Source: Halorussus rarus
GTDB taxonomy: Archaea; Halobacteriota; Halobacteria; Halobacteriales; Haladaptataceae
DNA: 64,000 nucleotides
Direction: 5' to 3'
Assembly (NCBI RefSeq): GCF_003369835.1
Contig: NZ_QPMJ01000002.1
Span: 930,001 to 994,000 of the forward strand
Position 1 is the first letter of the stretch. Each line of letters starts with the position of its first letter. Below are positions 48,810-63,545 of this stretch, one piece after another. Made by a program: the position numbers and the translations under genes. The notes below the pieces were generated by a model. That model saw only the letters and a list, made by a program, of their open reading frames with translations, did no database searches and was not told where the DNA came from.

Positions 48810-50102
48810 CTACCAAGTTAACCCTTCGTAGGTCAGACCGTCGCGGCGGTCGACGATTCTGCGGCCGTCCACGACGACCGAGTCGGCCATCGCGTCGAAC
48901 TCGTCGTCGAGCGCCGCGAACTCGTCCCAGTCAGTGACGACCAGCGCGCCGTGGGCGTCGGCGAGCGCCGCCGCGGCCGAGTCGGCGTACTCGACGTCGG
49001 GGAAGCGCTCGCGCATGTTCTCGGTGGCGACCGGATCGTAGGCCACGACTTCGGCATCGCGTTCCTGGAGGCCCTCGATGATGGGGATGGCCCGGGAGTT
49101 GCGGGTGTCGTCGGTGCCGGGCTTGAAGGCGAGGCCGAGGACGGCGACGCGTCTGCCGGCGTGATCGACGTGGCGTTCGAGCAGGTCGAGCATGCGCTCG
49201 GGCTGCTTGTCGTTGACCTCGACCGCGGCGTCGAGCAGAGTCGGCTCGTAGTCGGCGTCGCGGGCGGCGGCGATGAGCGCGGCGGTGTCCTTCGGGAAGC
49301 AGCTGCCGCCCCAGCCGACGCCCGACCGGAGGAAGCGCTCGCCGATGCGGTCGTCGAGGCCGATGGCCTCCATGACCTCGTAGGCGTCGACGCCGTACTC
49401 CTTGCAGACGTTCCCGAGTTCGTTGACGAGGCTGACCTTCGTGGCGAGGAAGGCGTTGTTGGCGTACTTGATCATCTCGGCTTCGCGGAGGCCGGTCTCG
49501 ACGAGCGCGGCGTCCGAGTCGGCGAGCAGCGGGTCGAAGACCTCTCGGAGGCGTTCGTTGGCGAGGTCGGTTCGCGTGCCGAAGACGACTTTGTCCGGGT
49601 TCTGGAAGTCCTCGACTGCGCTCCCCTCGCGGAGGAACTCGGGGTTCATCGCGACGTGGGTGTCTTGGTCGAGCGTCTTGCCCGAGGTTTCCTCGAGAAT
49701 CGGGGCGATGGTGTCCTCGGTGGTGCCCGGAACGACGGTGGACTTGACGACGACGACGTGCGGGTCGTCCTTCGCAGCGAGTGCCTCGCCGAGCGACCGC
49801 GCGCCGGCTTCCATGATGTCGAGATCGATGCTGCCGTCGTCTCGCGAGGGCGTGGGGAGTGCGAGGAACGTGACGTCGGTGTCGCGGACCGCGGCGTAGT
49901 CGGTGGTCGCGTTGAGTTGGTTGCCGCCGTACTCGGCGACGAGGTCGTCGAGGCCCGGTTCGTGAATCGGGGCTTCGCCCGCGTTGATTGAGTCGACGGT
50001 TGACTCGTCGATGTCGACGTTCGTTACCTCGTGGCCGTAGTCGGCGAGGCAGGCGGCGACGGTGGTGCCGACGTAGCCGCTGCCGACGATGCTGACGTTC
50101 AT
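48810..50102 (-). CDS. aglM: UDP-glucose 6-dehydrogenase
   Basis: A 430-residue nucleotide-sugar dehydrogenase. The N-terminal NAD domain is [20 protein letters not shown], with [19 protein letters not shown] and [20 protein letters not shown] in the middle, the catalytic cysteine in [20 protein letters not shown], and a C-terminal UDP-binding domain with [20 protein letters not shown]. It oxidises UDP-glucose to UDP-glucuronate for the haloarchaeal Agl N-glycosylation pathway. ATG 50102 is chosen because the family starts at the first NAD strand. It is near aglF, as in other haloarchaea. Confidence 0.9.
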
Positions 50103-50780: not shown

Positions 50781-51527
50781 ATGAAAGCCGTCGTGCTCGC
50801 TGCCGGTGAGGGAACTCGCCTGCGGCCGCTGACCGAAGACAAACCCAAGGGGATGGTCGAAGTCGACGGAAAACCAATCCTGTCCCACTGTTTCGAACAA
50901 CTGGCCGAACTCGGGGCGGACGAGTTCGTCGTGGTGGTGGGCTACCGCAAGCAGGACATCATCAGCCACTACGGCGACGCGTTCGAGGGCGTTCCGATCA
51001 CGTACGCCCACCAGCGCGAGCAGAAGGGGCTGGCGCACGCCCTGTTGACCGTTGAGGAGCACATCGACGACGACTTCATGCTGATCCTCGGCGACAACAT
51101 CTTCGACGCAAATCTGGGTGACGTAGTCAAGCGCCAGCGCGAGGATCGTGCGGATGCCGCGTTCCTCACCGAGGAGGTCCCGTACGAGGAGGCCGGCCGG
51201 TACGGGGTCTGCGACACGAACGACTACGGCGAGATTACGGACGTAGTCGAGAAGCCCGAGGACCCGCCGTCGAATCTGGTGATGACCGGGTTTTACACGT
51301 TCACACCCGCCATTTTCCATGCGTGCCATCTGGTTCAGCCGTCGAACCGCGGCGAGTACGAGATCAGTGAAGCAATCGACCTGCTGATTCAGAGCGGGCG
51401 GACCATCGACGCGATTCGGATGGACGGCTGGCGCGTCGACGTCGGCTACCCCGAGGACCGTGACCGGGCGGAGCGGCTGCTCCGTGGCGAGGACGTCGAA
51501 CCGGAGTCCGACTCGGCCGAAGCGTAG
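50781..51527 (+). CDS. aglF: Sugar-1-phosphate nucleotidyltransferase AglF
   Basis: A 248-residue nucleotidyltransferase. It opens MKAVVLAAGEGTRLRPLTED with the GEGTRLRP metal/nucleotide loop, then KPKGMVEVDGKPILSH, FMLILGDNIFDANL (the GD metal site), and VVEKPEDPPSNLVMTGFY with EAIDLLIQSGRTIDAIRMDG. It makes UDP- or dTDP-glucose from glucose-1-phosphate; in Haloferax AglF forms UDP-glucose for the N-glycan. It lies 680 bp from UDP-glucose dehydrogenase, a sensible pathway neighbour. Specificity for UTP or dTTP is not readable. Confidence 0.9.
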   Translation: MKAVVLAAGEGTRLRPLTEDKPKGMVEVDGKPILSHCFEQLAELGADEFVVVVGYRKQDIISHYGDAFEGVPITYAHQREQKGLAHALLTVEEHIDDDFMLILGDNIFDANLGDVVKRQREDRADAAFLTEEVPYEEAGRYGVCDTNDYGEITDVVEKPEDPPSNLVMTGFYTFTPAIFHACHLVQPSNRGEYEISEAIDLLIQSGRTIDAIRMDGWRVDVGYPEDRDRAERLLRGEDVEPESDSAEA

Positions 51528-55870: not shown

Positions 55871-57277
55871 ATGGTCTCCGGGTTGCGGTATCGCGTGCTA
55901 AGTGTCGTCGGCACTATTTTGATTACCGTTCTTGCGGTGATGATTGCGAATCTCCCCGCTGTACAGTGGTTCCTATCGACAGCCGTGCCGGTGGTTCAAC
56001 GATTGCCCGCGACCGTGCTCACCGGAGAGAAACTTACCGTGGCCGTGGCGACGGCCGTGGTGGTCGTCGTGTTGAATCTCATTCCGCTGTTCAAGCCACG
56101 GCCGCGCCGGATCCTCGATACGATGTTGGTGACCCAGCGGCGCGTGCTCATCGCCGGGCTCGCGTTAGCGACGATCGGCTACTTCGATTACTCCTACCAG
56201 CTTCCGCGCTCGACGCTCGTCCTGACGACGGTCGGCCTCCTCGTCTACCTCCCGCTGTGGTTCGTGACGATTCGTCGTCGCCCGTCCGAGCGGGACCGAG
56301 CAATCATCGTCGGCGATGACCCTGAGGAGATTGCAGACGTGCTAGAGGAAATCGATATTCCAGTTCTTGGCTACGTCTCACCGCCGAGTCCGTACTACAC
56401 CGACCGCGAGCCGGTCGCGGGTGGGCCTGCGGTTGCCGACGGCAGCGGTGAAGCGTTACTCAACGATCTCGACTGTCTTAGCGGGCTGTCGCGCCTCGAC
56501 GAGGTGCTGGTCAACTACAACATCGATACGGTCGTGCTGGCGTTCGCCCATCCTGACCGCGCGGAGTTCTTTGGGGCGCTCGACACCTGCTACGAGCACG
56601 GTGTCGACGCGAAGGTACATCGGGAGCACGCCGACGATGTGCTGACGACGACGGCCGCTGGGGACGAGGTCCTCGTTGATATTGAGTTGGAGCCGTGGGA
56701 CTGGCAGGACTACGTGTTCAAGCGGGCGTTCGACGTGGTGTTCGCGGTGAGTGGTCTGCTGGCATTTGCTCCCTTTATGACGGTCATCGCAGTTGCGATC
56801 AAACTCGACAACCCAGGGCCGGTGTTATATCGTCAAGAACGCACGGCAGAGTTCGGGGACACGTTTACCATCTACAAATTCCGGACAATGGTTCCCGAGA
56901 ACGAATCCGCGACTCCCGTCGAAGATGAGGAGAACGACCGAATCACTCGCGTCGGACGTTTGCTCCGTAACACTCATCTCGACGAAATTCCGCAACTGTG
57001 GTCAATTCTGATTGGCGAAATGAGCGTTGTGGGTCCACGAGCCGTCTGGACGAACGAAGAACAGTTGCTGGAGGAAACAACGGACATGTGGCGCAAGCGC
57101 TGGTTCGTCAAACCTGGGTTGACCGGGTTAGCGCAAATCAACAATGCAAAAAGTACAAACCCAACTTCGAAACTCCGCTACGACCTCGAATACATCCGTC
57201 GACAGTCCTTCTGGCTCGACGTGAAGATCGTCATTCGACAAATCTGGAAGGTTTTCGAGGACTTGTATCGAACGTGA
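55871..57277 (+). CDS. Polyprenyl sugar-phosphate transferase
   Basis: A 468-residue membrane protein: four to five N-terminal helices, a CoA-binding-like cytoplasmic domain (about 140-250, IIVGDDPEEIADVLEEIDIP), then the bacterial sugar transferase domain starting KRAFDVVFAVSGLLAFAPFM, with KLDNPGPVLYRQERTAEFGD, FTIYKFRTMV, and TRVGRLLRNTHLDEIPQLWS, VGPRAVW and KPGLTGLAQINNA. It links a sugar-1-phosphate to a polyprenyl or dolichyl phosphate at the membrane to start a glycan or exopolysaccharide. The start could be GTG 55868 or ATG 55871. It heads the glycan cluster. Confidence 0.92.
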   Translation: MVSGLRYRVLSVVGTILITVLAVMIANLPAVQWFLSTAVPVVQRLPATVLTGEKLTVAVATAVVVVVLNLIPLFKPRPRRILDTMLVTQRRVLIAGLALATIGYFDYSYQLPRSTLVLTTVGLLVYLPLWFVTIRRRPSERDRAIIVGDDPEEIADVLEEIDIPVLGYVSPPSPYYTDREPVAGGPAVADGSGEALLNDLDCLSGLSRLDEVLVNYNIDTVVLAFAHPDRAEFFGALDTCYEHGVDAKVHREHADDVLTTTAAGDEVLVDIELEPWDWQDYVFKRAFDVVFAVSGLLAFAPFMTVIAVAIKLDNPGPVLYRQERTAEFGDTFTIYKFRTMVPENESATPVEDEENDRITRVGRLLRNTHLDEIPQLWSILIGEMSVVGPRAVWTNEEQLLEETTDMWRKRWFVKPGLTGLAQINNAKSTNPTSKLRYDLEYIRRQSFWLDVKIVIRQIWKVFEDLYRT

Positions 57278-57382: not shown

Positions 57383-59797
57383 ATGACCGACGTACGCGAG
57401 GCGACCGACGACCTCGTCGCGGAGCGGCCGGACCTCGAGGCTGATCTCCGCGAAGTCCTCGCGGTCGACGAGCGCACTGATGGGTGGACCTTCGATGATG
57501 TCCCCGTCGATTCGGGGACGTTCGGCGAACTCGTCTCTCGGGATATCGTCGTTAAGGATGGCGATGAGTACGAGGTTTCTGACCCTGGTAGTGTCCGAGC
57601 TGGACTCGATGGCGACGCGGAGGCAAACCAGGCATCCGACACGGGAAGCCAGTTGCGGCTGTCGACAGTATCACTACCGTCGGTGTCTCGCGTGGAGGCC
57701 GGAGCGCTCGGCGGTGCATTAGCGGTCGTCCTCCTGATGCGTACGTACATCTTCCCGAGCGTCTTCCGGGGGGAGTACGTTGTCCTTCCCTCGAACGATC
57801 CCTACTACTATCGGTACTGGGTCGAACAACTTTCGGCCGAGGCGACCGGTGTCTTCGACTTCAGCGTTCTCTCCGGACTTCCTGGTGCGGTGGCTAAAGG
57901 TGAACCCCTGATGGTGGGAACGCTGTGGTGGTTTACGAATCTACTCGGTGGAGCTGACGCTTCGGGGTGGGTTTTATCGTGGTATCCCGTCGTCTCAGCG
58001 CTCGTAGTGGGTGTGCTGATCTACGCGATGACGGCCCGTGTGACCGGCGATCGTCGAGTTGGCCTGGCTTCCGTCGTCTTCCTCGCAGTGATTCCGGCAT
58101 TCGCGTATCGGACGGGACTCGGGTTCGCCGACCACCACGCCTTCGACTACCCCTGGCTCGTGTTGACGGCATTATCGCTTGTTTGGGTGGCCGACGTGGA
58201 CCGCGAGAGCCTTCGAGAAATCCGGCTCTGGTTCGTGTCTGGGTTGCTCGGCATCGCCGTGGCCGGGCAGGTGATGGCCTGGGAGGCTGGACCGCTGCTC
58301 ATCGGTGCACTTGGAGTCTACGTCGCGGTCCGTGCCGCCGCGGACGTGCGCGCCGATCGGTCACCACTCGTCGCGAGCATGCCGATTCTCGCTGGACTGA
58401 TGGTTGCGTCCCTGCTCTCGCATCTCACCCATACTGGCTTTGGATGGCACACTGATGTTGTCGCCTACTCGCCGGCGCTGTTGTTCGTCAGTGTGCTGGG
58501 CGTCTCGCTCATCGGCGAGGGAGTTCGTCGAACGGGAATGCCGGCATTCGTTCTGGGTGCGACCGAAATTGCGGTCGGGCTGAGTGGGCTTGCAGTTCTT
58601 CGAGTCCTGTTGCCGACGTACGGTGATAGACTATTCCAGCAGCTCGATATTCTCCTCTTCAATTCGGGTGCAGCCGAAACGCGATCGCTGTTCGCTGGCG
58701 GTCCGGCTGGGTTCTTCCTCGGTCCTATTCTTGAGCTGGGCTTTGCGTGGTTCCTCGGCCTGGCAATGCTTGCACTGATCTCGTGGCGGGCCTACCGCCG
58801 TGAGGACTCAACGTGGCTCGTGGTCTGTACCTACGGCTGGTATTTCCTCGTCTTAACGGCGTTCCAGCGCCGGTTCGTCGGTGAACTTGCGCCCTTCATG
58901 GCGATACTGGCGGGATACGGATTCGTCGTCTTCGCTGTGAAACTTGACGTGCTGTCACCACTGGCGCTCGACGGCGACCGACATAATCGGCGGTTGGCCA
59001 GCGACGGGGCAGGGTCGAACGCTCGGAAGGACGAGGACGGTCAATCGCTCGGTTTGCCCACTCGAAGCACGGCCACAACAGTTGCTGTCCTTCTGCTATT
59101 CGTCACCAGTGCAGGCGCGGCCCAGACCGCAGTCCGACACGAGCAGGTGAAGATTGCCGACGAGAAATTCGATGCGGCAGTGTGGATGGACGAGTACGCC
59201 GAGGACCGCGCCTGGGAATACCCTGAGAACTACGTGTTGAGCAAGTGGGGTCGCAACCGGATGTACAACTACTTCGTGAACGGTGAGTCAGAGTTTTACA
59301 ACTTTGCATACGATAACTATGAACAGTTCCTCTCGTCGACAGATCCTATAGCCCAGTACAAGCGACTTCGTGGCGATGTTGGATTCATCGTCACGAAAAA
59401 CGTGAAGGTAAGCGGGAAGGTTTCGCCGAAGACAAACTACGCCCGCCTTCACAAGCGGTTCGGCAGTACTGGTCCCGATGGCGCGTCCGGTGCGGGCCAC
59501 TACCGGGCACTCTACGCGAGCAAGGATGGTTCGGTGAAAGTGTTCTCGTTGGTTCCCGGTGCTAACATCAGCGGGACACTCTCACCAAACAAAACCGTAG
59601 TTCTCTCAAAGCAGGTCAAGATCCAGGGCACGTCATTCGAGTATCGACGCACCATCACCGCTGGTGCTGACGGGAACTTCTCGGTGATCGTTCCGTACGC
59701 TGGTGACTATACCCTTGGGAATCGGAAAGTACAGGTCCCGAAGGACGCGGTCGAAGACGGTGGGAACGTCAGCGTCGATAAGTTCCAAGACTCTTGA
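57383..59797 (+). CDS. aglB: AglB/STT3-like oligosaccharyltransferase, variant motif
   Basis: An 804-residue membrane protein. A cytoplasmic acidic N-terminal domain (about 1-100) precedes about 12 to 13 helices with the catalytic loops VLPSNDPYYYRYWVEQLSAE (first D-x-x-Y-Y region) and GLGFADHHAFDYPWLVLTAL (the DHH-x-F-(D/E) motif), and AETRSLFAGG in the fifth loop. The C-terminal extracellular part has YVLSKWGRNRMYNYFVNGES where classical STT3/AglB has WWDYG. A Thr/Ser-recognition role of that motif would be changed, so specificity may differ. It has a signal-like final domain that is beta-rich. It transfers a lipid-linked glycan to Asn in N-x-(S/T) of surface proteins. Confidence 0.85.
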   Translation: MTDVREATDDLVAERPDLEADLREVLAVDERTDGWTFDDVPVDSGTFGELVSRDIVVKDGDEYEVSDPGSVRAGLDGDAEANQASDTGSQLRLSTVSLPSVSRVEAGALGGALAVVLLMRTYIFPSVFRGEYVVLPSNDPYYYRYWVEQLSAEATGVFDFSVLSGLPGAVAKGEPLMVGTLWWFTNLLGGADASGWVLSWYPVVSALVVGVLIYAMTARVTGDRRVGLASVVFLAVIPAFAYRTGLGFADHHAFDYPWLVLTALSLVWVADVDRESLREIRLWFVSGLLGIAVAGQVMAWEAGPLLIGALGVYVAVRAAADVRADRSPLVASMPILAGLMVASLLSHLTHTGFGWHTDVVAYSPALLFVSVLGVSLIGEGVRRTGMPAFVLGATEIAVGLSGLAVLRVLLPTYGDRLFQQLDILLFNSGAAETRSLFAGGPAGFFLGPILELGFAWFLGLAMLALISWRAYRREDSTWLVVCTYGWYFLVLTAFQRRFVGELAPFMAILAGYGFVVFAVKLDVLSPLALDGDRHNRRLASDGAGSNARKDEDGQSLGLPTRSTATTVAVLLLFVTSAGAAQTAVRHEQVKIADEKFDAAVWMDEYAEDRAWEYPENYVLSKWGRNRMYNYFVNGESEFYNFAYDNYEQFLSSTDPIAQYKRLRGDVGFIVTKNVKVSGKVSPKTNYARLHKRFGSTGPDGASGAGHYRALYASKDGSVKVFSLVPGANISGTLSPNKTVVLSKQVKIQGTSFEYRRTITAGADGNFSVIVPYAGDYTLGNRKVQVPKDAVEDGGNVSVDKFQDS

Positions 59798-59921: not shown

Positions 59922-60908
59922 ATGCAAATCCTCGTAACTGGCGGCGCGGGTTTCATTGGAGGTCATCTTGCCGAGCAGTTTACCCGCCTGGGCCATCATG
60001 TGGTCGCACTCGATAACTTCGAACCGTACTACGATATCGGCATCAAGGAACACAACGTCGAATGCAGTCGAACCGTCGCCAGCGAGGGCAGCGGGAGTTA
60101 CGAACTTGTTCAAGGTGATATTTGCGATGCAGACTTTGTCAGTAAATACGTCAATAATGCCGACATCATCTTCCACCAAGCGGCACAGGCTGGCGTCCGG
60201 ACAAGCGTTGAACAGCCCCAGAAGGTCAATGACATCAACGTCGGTGGCACGTTAAACATCCTGGAGGCGGCCCGCGATTCGGAGACTAAGCGTGTGGTTG
60301 TCGCGAGCTCATCGTCGGTGTACGGCAAGCCCGAGTACCTCCCCTACGACGAGGAGCACCCGACCACGCCCGTGAGTCCCTACGGTGCGTCGAAGCTAGC
60401 CGAGGAGCAGTACACGCGGGTGTACCACGAGGTGTACGGCTTGCCGACAGTGTCCTTGCGTTACTTCACGGTGTACGGGCCACGGATGCGCCCGAACATG
60501 GCAATATCGAACTTCGTCTCACGGTGCATAAACGGAAAGTCGCCAGTCATCTATGGCGACGGTATGCAAACGCGGGATTTTACTTACATCGATGACGTGG
60601 TACGCGCGAACGAGACGTTGCTGGAGACTGACACCGCCGACGGCGAGATACTGAACATCGGAAGTACGGACAATATCGAAATTCGGACCTTGGCCGAGGA
60701 AATCCGCGACCAGCTCGCGCCCGAAATCGACTTGGAATACGACGAGCGCCACGACGCCGACGCTGAACACACTCACGCGGACATCTCTAAGGCGAGGGAG
60801 CTGATTGGGTACAAGCCAACAACGACAATCCGAGAGGGCGTCAAGCGGTTCACCGAGTGGTATCGAGAGAACCGCGGATGGTACGAGCCGCTGGTACAGA
60901 GTTCTTGA
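59922..60908 (+). CDS. NAD-dependent nucleotide-sugar epimerase
   Basis: A 328-residue short-chain dehydrogenase/reductase of the extended type: MQILVTGGAGFIGGHLAEQF (G-x-x-G-x-x-G), FHQAAQAGVRTSVEQPQKVN, catalytic SSSSVYGKPEYLPYDEE with the YxxxK pair in SPYGASKLAEEQY, and RYFTVYGPRMRPNMAISNF. It most resembles UDP-glucuronate or UDP-glucose 4-epimerases. The start is the ATG that opens the first strand. It lies between the aglB-like and GT4 genes on the same strand and probably supplies a sugar nucleotide to the glycan. Confidence 0.9.
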   Translation: MQILVTGGAGFIGGHLAEQFTRLGHHVVALDNFEPYYDIGIKEHNVECSRTVASEGSGSYELVQGDICDADFVSKYVNNADIIFHQAAQAGVRTSVEQPQKVNDINVGGTLNILEAARDSETKRVVVASSSSVYGKPEYLPYDEEHPTTPVSPYGASKLAEEQYTRVYHEVYGLPTVSLRYFTVYGPRMRPNMAISNFVSRCINGKSPVIYGDGMQTRDFTYIDDVVRANETLLETDTADGEILNIGSTDNIEIRTLAEEIRDQLAPEIDLEYDERHDADAEHTHADISKARELIGYKPTTTIREGVKRFTEWYRENRGWYEPLVQSS

Positions 60909-60996: not shown

Positions 60997-62109
60997 ATGC
61001 GGATACTCCGTGTCGCACAGAAAGTGTACCCCGACGTGGTAGGCGGCGGTCCCTACCATGTTCACGCGCTCAGTCGTGACCAAGCTGCCGCGGGCCACGA
61101 CGTAACAGTGTTAACGGTCGGGGACGGCCCACGTCAGGAGGAACACGAGGGTTACACGATTGTGCGCAGGAAGCCTACTGCGACAGTCCTTGGGAACGAT
61201 ATCTCAGTCGGGATTGGACGCTTCCTTCGAATGGCGAACGAATACGATGTCGTCCACGCTCATTCGCATCTCTACTTCTCGACCAACCTCACAGCACTAA
61301 ATCGACAGCTCGGCGATACACCACTGGCAATTACGAACCACGGACTGTATTCTCAAAACGCTCCCGAATGGCTTTTTGACATGTATTTACGGACTCTCGG
61401 CCGATGGACGTTCAACAGCGCCGACGTAGTATTCTGTTATACTGCAGAAGATAAACACCGAGTCCGCAACTTCGGCGTTAGAACAGATATCGAAGTCATT
61501 GCGAACGGCATCGACCAGACAAGATTCACACCGGACGGGCCAGAGAGCGACCTTGTGGACGCCGATGGTCCGATTGTGTTGTTCGTCGGCCGCTTGGTCG
61601 AGGGGAAGCGACCGGTAGATCTCCTCGAAGCGGTTGCTCAACTACGGAGTGCTCACCCGGACGTCGAGCTCTACATATGTGGCGACGGACCATTACATAC
61701 GGAACTGGCTCAGCGAGCGGGAAAGCTCGATATCCGTGACGCGGTGACATTTCTCGGCCACGTTTCGTACGACGAGATGCCGAAAGTATACCGTGCAAGC
61801 GACGTACTCGCATTACCGAGTCGGGCGGAGGGGCTTCCACGGACCGTCCTAGAGTCGTTGGCGTCAGGGACGCCAGCGGTGACAAGCGACCTTGAACAGG
61901 TTGCACCAATCGTCGATGGGGTGGGCCTCACCGTGCCTGTCGGCGACTGTGAAGCGCTCGCGAACGCGTTGGGGCGACTACTCGCTGACGACCAACTCCG
62001 GGCCCAGTACAGTCAGGAGGGCCGTCAGCGCGTACAGACGGGATTTACTTGGAGCGAGACGGTCGACCGAACGACGGAGACGTTACGAAACCTCATTAGA
62101 CAACAATGA
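60997..62109 (+). CDS. GT4-family glycosyltransferase
   Basis: A 370-residue GT-B fold enzyme: MRILRVAQKVYPDVVGGGPY, HVHALSRDQAAAGHDVTVLT, ADVVFCYTAEDKHRVRNFGV, IVLFVGRLVEGKRPVDLLEA and the E-x7-E donor motif as LALPSRAEGLPRTVLESLAS. It should transfer a sugar from a nucleotide donor onto a lipid-linked acceptor in the cytoplasm. An AT-rich GATATTA near 60964-60970 is 30 nt before the ATG. The stop overlaps the next small gene. Confidence 0.92.
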   Translation: MRILRVAQKVYPDVVGGGPYHVHALSRDQAAAGHDVTVLTVGDGPRQEEHEGYTIVRRKPTATVLGNDISVGIGRFLRMANEYDVVHAHSHLYFSTNLTALNRQLGDTPLAITNHGLYSQNAPEWLFDMYLRTLGRWTFNSADVVFCYTAEDKHRVRNFGVRTDIEVIANGIDQTRFTPDGPESDLVDADGPIVLFVGRLVEGKRPVDLLEAVAQLRSAHPDVELYICGDGPLHTELAQRAGKLDIRDAVTFLGHVSYDEMPKVYRASDVLALPSRAEGLPRTVLESLASGTPAVTSDLEQVAPIVDGVGLTVPVGDCEALANALGRLLADDQLRAQYSQEGRQRVQTGFTWSETVDRTTETLRNLIRQQ

Positions 62110-62390
62110 CTGGAGATTCGACCATTTACTCGACGTTCACAACTGCTGTCTACAACTCACGAATCTACTCCACCATCGGGGCTGTAAGGCAGTGGAGTAG
62201 CCATAGCACCGTCGTCCGCATCCTTGACACTCCAAGGATACTCGTCGGACTGCTGCTAATCGTCGTTCTTGCAAGCTTCTTGCGGGTATTGTCTTCGGAT
62301 CTTCACGCGGCGTTAAAGTTCATGAGTTTCGTTGTCCTGTTTGTCGTACTCGCCACGTTGCTGTGGCCATTGTTGGAGCTCGTCGAGTAG
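62106..62390 (+). CDS. Small two-TM protein, overlapping convergent gene
   Basis: A 94-residue protein whose ATG overlaps the glycosyltransferase stop (ATGA). The N-terminal half is polar and Ser/Thr-rich (STIYSTFTTAVYNSRIYSTI), and the C-terminal half has two hydrophobic segments (ILVGLLLIVVLASFLRVL, KFMSFVVLFVVLATLLWPLL). It overlaps the convergent membrane protein gene by 78 bp. The coupling to the glycosyltransferase favours a real gene, but the function is unknown and codon evidence is limited. Confidence 0.5.
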   Translation: MTGDSTIYSTFTTAVYNSRIYSTIGAVRQWSSHSTVVRILDTPRILVGLLLIVVLASFLRVLSSDLHAALKFMSFVVLFVVLATLLWPLLELVE

Positions 62391-63545
62391 TAAACGCTCC
62401 CATCGCTCGACGACCGGGGCGGCGAAGACGACCATCAGTAGGACGAACGGGATGCGGTGGCGGATGGTCGTCCCGAAATTCGAGTCGATGAGACCGTATC
62501 CTACTACGCCACCGCCGTACACGATTACTAACGTGATTAAGATAGCGTCGTCGAATCGGCACTGAGAGAACGACCGAAACGCGACCACCGTGAGTGCGAT
62601 AAGGAGCGGGAGCGAGAGCATTCCCACGAAATCGAATACAGAAGTGACGTGAAGAGGAAACGGTGCATACTGGAAGTAGATTGCCCGGATCGGTGCAACA
62701 AGTAACACGTCGAGCCATGACTGATACTGCAGTTCCGTGAGGTAGGCAGCTCCGCCCGTACGGCGGAAAGCGACCCGTGACGTCAGCGTCGCAAGCGGAT
62801 ACTGATAGGTGAACAGAGAGAAACCTATCGCCCCACTGAAGACAGCGATCCCAGAGAGCATCGTGAGCGAAATCGGGCGTCGAGCGACGCAGTTTATTGC
62901 ATTGAGAGTCGTGCCTGCGGCGCAGCCCAAAACGACCAGAATTGCTAACTCCGGGCGAAGGAGGTAGAGCATGCCGAGACAGGGGATGCCCAACGCTGCG
63001 GCGATACCGTCCCAGCGTCGAAAGGCCCGCACGCCACACGCAAGCGTCGCAAATGTGAGCGCGACCGTCATCGAATCCCGCATCGGGAGTGATAGGAAGA
63101 CGAACGAAACTGGGAGGTACAGCACTACGACGGTGAGGCCCTGCGTCGATTCGACATCGGGATAGAGCCTCGTCGCGAGATATGCGACGGGAAGCGGGAG
63201 GAGAACCGCGAAGAGCGCGTTGAGAACGGAGACGATGGTCGGATCGGGTGTAAATATCGCGTACGCCGTTGCTTGGAATCCGCTGAACGCGCCGACCGTA
63301 CTGGAGGCCTCCGGCAGCCGTCCCCCCGCGAGCACGGTCGCGACCTCGTGAAACTGGTGGATGTCCCACCCGTACGGAAGTTTGGGCAAGATAAATAGCG
63401 AGAAGAGGACGTGAAGCGCCAATGCGATAATACCGGATACCCAGTAGACGCCGCTGCCGTACCGTCGTGCGATGAGTCGAAATACGAGCGTGACCGTCGC
63501 GATCGCGAACAGCAGCGAACTCGCCTGAACGAGGAGGTCGTACAT
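62313..63545 (-). CDS. Polytopic membrane protein, likely glycan-related
   Basis: A 410-residue protein with about 11 membrane helices. It opens MYDLLVQASSLLFAIATVTL and has a large extracellular loop KLPYGWDIHQFHEVATVLAG, then GFQATAYAIFTPDPTIVSVL and SLPMRDSMTVALTFATLACG. This topology fits PMT-like or O-antigen polymerase-like proteins that use lipid-linked sugars, but no catalytic motif can be pinned down. ATG 63545 gives a sensible first helix; the longer frame from 63638 overlaps the asparagine synthase gene. It lies between genes of the glycan cluster. Confidence 0.7.
   Translation of the reverse strand: MYDLLVQASSLLFAIATVTLVFRLIARRYGSGVYWVSGIIALALHVLFSLFILPKLPYGWDIHQFHEVATVLAGGRLPEASSTVGAFSGFQATAYAIFTPDPTIVSVLNALFAVLLPLPVAYLATRLYPDVESTQGLTVVVLYLPVSFVFLSLPMRDSMTVALTFATLACGVRAFRRWDGIAAALGIPCLGMLYLLRPELAILVVLGCAAGTTLNAINCVARRPISLTMLSGIAVFSGAIGFSLFTYQYPLATLTSRVAFRRTGGAAYLTELQYQSWLDVLLVAPIRAIYFQYAPFPLHVTSVFDFVGMLSLPLLIALTVVAFRSFSQCRFDDAILITLVIVYGGGVVGYGLIDSNFGTTIRHRIPFVLLMVVFAAPVVERWERLLLDELQQWPQQRGEYDKQDNETHEL

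Follow-up and report, generated by a model that had tools for sequence, protein, structure and literature searches.

The window, that is, the whole stretch of 64,000 nucleotides from Halorussus rarus that was analysed, carries a glycan gene cluster in which an ORF with an ATG start encodes a divergent member of the AglB/STT3 family. The genes and features are as follows:

48810..50102, − strand: UDP-sugar dehydrogenase, AglM-like by eye (sequence inspection)
50781..51527, + strand: nucleotidyltransferase, AglF-like by eye (sequence inspection)
55871..57277, + strand: PF02397 phosphoglycosyltransferase (204 bits), directly upstream of the paralog
57383..59797, + strand: AglB/STT3-family paralog without WWDYG, 804 aa (profile matches, structure model)
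57464..57610, + strand: N-terminal domain of the paralog, residues 28-76, common to an EMC3/TMCO1-like insertase of the same genome
57797..57799, + strand: D139 in N-D-P, the first DXD; by homology a ligand of the metal (alignments)
58130..58135, + strand: D250-H251 of the second DXD (D-H-H) (alignments)
58676..58678, + strand: E432, TIXE-type glutamate in external loop 5 (alignments)
58871..58873, + strand: R497 of the Q-x-R-F segment (alignments)
59234..59284, + strand: VLSKWGRNRMYNYFVNG (residues 618-634), the WWDYG position, with its own signature V618, W622, R626 and N629 (alignments)
59558..59707, + strand: AglB_L1 peripheral domain, residues 726-775 (PF18079, 40.9 bits)
59922..60908, + strand: NAD-dependent sugar-nucleotide epimerase/dehydratase (PF16363/PF01370)
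60997..62109, + strand: GT4-type glycosyltransferase (PF00534/PF13439)
62313..63545, − strand: membrane protein inside the glycan cluster, 0 Pfam families matched

Further along, the cluster also contains FdtA, a DegT aminotransferase and additional glycosyltransferases, and it may be guessed that the membrane protein at 62313-63545 is a polymerase or flippase. The 804-aa protein matches STT3 (PF02516) with 31.5 bits (Pfam cut-off 24.5) and exceeds the cut-off of 23.6 for AglB_L1; against TIGR04154, the model of the archaeosortase-system archaeal STT3, it reaches 169 bits vs the curated cut-off of 450. The AlphaFold2 model, which was built from 30 relatives, has a mean pLDDT of 83.4, and its closest solved structure is AglB of A. 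fulgidus (7e9s; Z 37.4, rmsd 4.0), matched over 650 aligned residues (100-804 of the model), with eukaryotic STT3 and PglB ranking behind. The membrane domain, the two DXD motifs and the TIXE/SVSE glutamate, which are the hallmarks of STT3, are all present. In addition, pairwise comparison of the N-terminal domain with the N terminus of the insertase (G000:C2:721482-721676; PF01956, E 8e-46) gives 38% over 55 columns (E 4e-9), and one may guess that the paralog acts co-translationally through this EMC3-like domain. Matches to the same domain or the insertase, in ORFs some 300 aa long, were seen in roughly 20 of the 59 genomes searched.

The residues on which catalysis depends are kept. N138-D139 of the first DXD occurs in 30/30 aligned relatives, and D139 in all of the 80 loci listed out of 137 found; D250 is Asp in 28 and Glu in 2 of the 30, and Asp in 67 and Glu in 13 of the 80; H251 and R497 are each present in 30/30 and 80/80; and E432 is found in 29/30 (the 30th has a Glu shifted by one column) and 79/80. 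The accessible parts of PMC8342417 describe the metal-binding and catalytic roles of the DXD and TIXE-type positions. Since these residues are kept, the paralog should move a lipid-linked glycan onto asparagine; that is to say, it would take such a glycan as donor and transfer it to an Asn. The paralog could also be imagined as a regulator or chaperone, of AglB or of the S-layer, without catalysis of its own, because mutating the motif that is lost here abolishes glycosylation in other OSTs (PMC2952790, as far as its available text goes), but nearly all of the 80 listed loci retain the metal and catalytic residues, as expected of an enzyme, and such a role is very improbable.

The motif position itself lies in YVLSKWGRNRMYNYFVNG (residues 617-634, bases 59231-59284), where K-W-G-R-N takes the place of WWDYG and VMSWWDYGHW of AglB corresponds to VLSKWGRNRM. 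This placement rests on the local context (EYPENYVLSKW vs DYPEGAYGVMSWW) and on the model of the paralog, in which KWGRN sits between a strand and a helix. The paralogs share a family signature, V-x(3)-W-x(2)-N-R-x-Y-N, of which V618, W622, R626 and N629 do not vary among the 30 aligned relatives; among the 80 listed loci, V618, R626 and N629 are each present in 80, W622 in 78, N625 in 69 and Y628 in 73. At the Asp of WWD the aligned paralogs have G (26), W (2), P (1) or D (1), and the single one that keeps D is without the first W, so that WWD is found in 0/30 aligned paralogs as well as in 0/80 listed loci (of 137 found). The original prediction had read the locus as an AglB-like protein whose WWDYG is replaced and whose membrane-loop catalytic acids are kept, and both halves agree with the alignments (K-W-G-R-N at the motif; D139, D250 and E432 conserved). 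Of the +2 Ser/Thr pocket, the part formed by WWDYG is gone. Judged from these alignments, the motif loss is a family-wide feature beyond chance. Together with this part of the pocket, DK/MI seemingly is gone too: columns 668-677, the expected DK/MI site, have no conserved D/K or M/I, in a region where the alignment to canonical AglB is weak.

Another explanation is that the motif has been misplaced, the acceptor site using another W-x-D segment and the enzyme being an ordinary AglB. It draws on the WMD at 601 of the window paralog and on the weak profile alignment of the C-terminal part: the motif stretch alone gave no significant score in profile-profile alignment for KWGRN on WWDYG, and with small windows the expected register came up next to alternatives without significance. 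The whole C-terminal domain was aligned as well; this was set aside, only the L1 part being confident and KWGRN not being placed on WWDYG. The model of canonical AglB is poor around WWDYG (pLDDT <50 at 537-616), so no decision on the motif register is taken from it. On the other side, a sequence scan for W-x-D-x-G, whose presence in the acceptor site would have told against the original prediction, found none in any of the 30 aligned paralogs, that of the window included, and canonical AglB is a different gene of the same genome; this explanation is extremely improbable. Among the 80 listed loci W-x-D-x-G occurs elsewhere only in L109 (829) and L115 (541); a WDYG at 295, within the membrane part, is seen in L101 and L107.

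The canonical AglB with SWWDYG is encoded at G000:C1:1510597-1513350 in the window genome, which provides the second aglB with WWDYG whose search had been proposed earlier. Of the earlier alternative, another sequon or a paralog, the second part is supported, and use of another sequon is conjecture. Among 59 searched genomes, the window's own being one of them, 30 have a full-length paralog without WWDYG; each of these 30 also encodes a canonical AglB that scores above the TIGR04154 cut-off, and WWDYG is present in 30/30 and 20/20 canonical copies inspected, the two sets being partly the same genes. At E 1e-60 or better the paralog is found in 95 of the 195 genomes of the order, in a few of them as a fragment, in keeping with the earlier mention of similar variants in other haloarchaea; and in the phylogeny that had been called for, one branch with 100/100 support divides 30 variants from 30 canonical proteins in a tree without outgroup. 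In one Halorussus genome (G004:C1:3136-12224, 3534030-3543057), several copies of the paralog are present, of which some are interrupted by stops or frameshifts. By distribution and tree, the paralog is a conserved haloarchaeal family, distinct from the canonical AglB of the same cell, and the earlier interpretation as a whole is partly supported.

Compared with AglB (A. fulgidus 7e9s; Hbt. salinarum VNG1068G), the paralog has in common the STT3 fold over 650 residues, AglB_L1, the two DXD motifs, the TIXE-type Glu and the R of Q-x-R-F. It differs in being without WWDYG and without conserved DK/MI columns (weak alignment), in its extra N-terminal domain, in being about 140 residues shorter between motif and L1, in its score under the TIGR04154 cut-off and in its neighbourhood. 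Several STT3 paralogs per cell are also known from the AglB paralogs of A. fulgidus and from eukaryotic STT3A/STT3B; these are not known to lack WWDYG, whereas it is lost throughout the haloarchaeal paralog family.

As for the donor, PF02397 enzymes make polyprenyl-pyrophosphate sugars, and the one at 55871-57277 would make a pyrophosphate-linked first sugar. A PF02397-type gene (BLAST) is near the paralog in 47 of the 80 listed loci, at <1 kb in 25 of those, and is not in reach in the other 33, the loci reaching at most 8 kb beyond the paralog in either direction and 13 of the 80 being <17 kb long. When 20 genomes were compared pairwise, such a gene was found in 11/20 paralog surroundings vs 0/20 canonical AglB surroundings (p 1.5e-4), two of the latter being short (15.4 and 11.9 kb). 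Because of the PF02397 gene in its surroundings, a pyrophosphate-linked donor is suggested for the paralog, most likely a polyprenyl- or dolichyl-pyrophosphate repeat-unit glycan that would be begun by the adjoining PF02397 enzyme. PF02397 enzymes commonly start exopolysaccharides too, which is why the strongest rival is an active GT-C transferase of surface polysaccharide/EPS, moving a pyrophosphate glycan to lipid, a sugar chain or Ser/Thr. The window cluster resembles a heteropolysaccharide locus (PF02397, glycosyltransferases, FdtA, DegT aminotransferase), the upstream enzyme best fits an NCBIfam exopolysaccharide model (TIGR03025, 279.9 bits, just below the cut-off of 295.55), and Haloarcula hispanica makes an acidic EPS according to the part of PMC9943897 at hand. 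Such a transferase is nevertheless unlikely, given the retained AglB fold and PF18079 peripheral domain, the S-layer genes near some paralogs and the association with N-terminal Asn, both of which are described below.

The paralog is present in 4 of the 13 Halobacterium genomes examined. Genome G075 is taken as Hbt. salinarum because one of its proteins matches bacteriorhodopsin with 100% identity over residues 3-262; between its paralog (141 bits against TIGR04154, cut-off 450) and the S-layer gene there are 3.3 kb. The genes follow one another as S-layer glycoprotein (TIGR04216, 1181 bits), CARDB protein, ABC ATPase, permease, paralog, glmS, two glmU-like genes (TIGR03992, over cut-off) and a PF02397 transferase, the whole set spanning <14 kb, with the ABC ATPase, permease and glmS assigned by eye. 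The canonical AglB with SWWDYG is on a different contig. S-layer-like genes (by PGF-CTERM) were found near the paralog in 7 of 100 loci examined (two locus sets sharing some genomes), namely in some Halorubrum, Halobellus and Halobacterium loci; csg synteny is thus not general, and these neighbours, like the adjoining S-layer gene of Hbt. salinarum, speak against the transfer to polysaccharide. Two S-layer glycoprotein genes each, over the TIGR04216 cut-off, are present in G070 (C1:210483-218261) and G073 (C1:1141945, C3:30564), and both copies of G073 have an Ala-Asn start.

In the accessible sections of PMC2952790, Asn-2 of the Hbt. salinarum S-layer protein bears a repeating-unit N-glycan that is linked via GalNAc and built on dolichol pyrophosphate; bacitracin blocks its transfer, and the glycan survives exchange of Ser-4 to Val, Leu or Asn. 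The canonical AglB of the species uses a dolichyl-monophosphate glycan as donor (PMC8674786, in the portion available), and the AglB-dependent tetrasaccharide is the subject of recent work as represented by the available portions of PMC6591318, PMC8674786, PMC11239922, PMC11980604 and PMC13308652. Several OSTs were suspected in Hbt. salinarum and a single OST gene was recognised, again in the sections of PMC2952790 at hand. The mature S-layer protein of G075 is predicted to start A-N-A-D, where the old work had N-A-S and not N-A-D, so the Asn is kept without Ser at +2. The predicted pyrophosphate donor, the acceptor position and the +2 tolerance of the paralog are all like those of the Asn-2 glycan, which for its part has no known transferase within those sections, the link to the gene being our own. 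On gene order and predicted donor, the paralog of Hbt. salinarum is a candidate OST of the Asn-2 glycan.

Whether this position is of wider use was examined in S-layer-type signal-peptide proteins (TIGR04207 over cut-off) of 25 genomes with and 25 without the paralog, with matches in 24 and 23 of them, respectively. The mature N terminus was taken after the A-x-A site, the cleavage being set by motif. The counts comprise all 74 matches that exceed the curated cut-off, 12 rows below it having been dropped beforehand, and leave aside three pattern-only Halorussus proteins (L321 DSAAND, L322 NYGSDA, L327 ADLTDG). Asn at mature position 1-2 is found in 19/38 proteins with the paralog vs 2/36 without (p 2e-5), or 16/24 vs 2/23 genomes (p 6e-5), where position 2 was prompted by the Hbt. 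salinarum literature, the cut at 1-2 was chosen after looking at the data and the species are related. Such an Asn outside N-x-S/T, as in the mature starts VNER and ANLD, occurs in 16/38 vs 0/36 proteins (p 4e-6). When the uncertain "yes" rows (two G050 proteins, nearly identical and unlike S-layer proteins, plus L288 in G003 and L284 in G065, both with an uncertain cleavage site) are set to "no", the counts become 13/24 vs 2/23 genomes (p 0.0013), 15/38 vs 2/36 proteins (p 6e-4) and 12/38 vs 0/36 for non-sequon Asn (p 2e-4). Stratified by genus, over the three genera that include paralog-bearing as well as paralog-free genomes, the association has a one-sided p of 0.0095 (0.013 with G065 as "no"), and with wider limits the genome counts are 19/24 vs 8/23 (positions 1-3, p 0.003) and 22/24 vs 8/23 (positions 1-4, p 6e-5). 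Asn at 1-2 is missing in 8 of the 24 paralog genomes, and the S-layer-like proteins seen in the window's own genome are without an N-terminal Asn. A surface protein with the mature start x-x-N-A-G-P-E (L260, L263, L293) was observed in Halobacterium genomes of both kinds, paralog-bearing and paralog-free.

These counts bear on a further possibility, a second OST that keeps N-x-S/T, with the pocket rebuilt from other residues, and differs from AglB in donor only. The retained TIXE-type Glu, DXD motifs and fold would suit such an enzyme, as would the N-A-S or N-H-S at some N-terminal Asn and the reading of the sequon main chain by the TIXE motif too (PMC8342417, same accessible parts). It has to contend with the absence of WWD in 80/80 listed loci and the unconserved DK/MI columns, with the 16 of 19 paralog-genome proteins whose Asn at 1-2 is without +2 Ser/Thr, and with the tolerance of the Ser-4 exchange in Hbt. 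salinarum (PMC2952790, sections as above), and it is likewise unlikely, coming next after the transfer to polysaccharide.

The paralogy, the loss of the motif, the retained catalytic residues and fold, the linkage of genes and the statistical association are shown, and what best joins them is a second OST of STT3/AglB fold, independent of +2 Ser/Thr and serving N-terminal Asn, whose activity, donor and acceptor we infer and to which a chance just short of even is given. The family motif W-x-x-N-R-x-Y-N would stand in place of the pocket that reads +2 Ser/Thr; as this pocket is replaced, the acceptor Asn should be chosen by something other than N-x-S/T, and it would be picked by its position near the N terminus. 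The likeliest acceptor would be an Asn at or beside the N terminus that signal-peptide cleavage exposes in the S-layer protein, like Asn-2 of Hbt. salinarum. A fuller proposal, in which an OST family freed from N-x-S/T puts pyrophosphate repeat-unit glycans onto N-terminal S-layer Asn, perhaps at the translocon, and includes the missing Asn-2 enzyme, is made tentatively, with a probability clearly below one half.

Among the open-access papers listed in searches on haloarchaeal OSTs, WWDYG and Hbt. salinarum glycans, none describes the paralog family by its title or in the portions consulted. Nikolayev 2020 is said to survey AglB across Archaea and could mention it. The low-salt Agl15 pathway of Haloferax is likewise an AglB-independent N-glycan pathway without an identified OST in the available part of PMC8241124, and no Haloferax locus is among the 80 paralog loci listed of 137.

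In N-glycosylation, recognition of N-x-S/T via WWDYG is treated as general. If the proposed reading is true, a conserved family with an intact catalytic site but no reader would mean that the N-x-S/T rule can be lifted, and a sequon-free transferase would, if true, be of interest to glycoengineering. For Hbt. salinarum, the Asn-2 glycan that ignores the sequon and is without an enzyme in the sections of PMC2952790 at hand becomes, through the paralog, a puzzle that may be tested by gene deletion in a genetically tractable organism.
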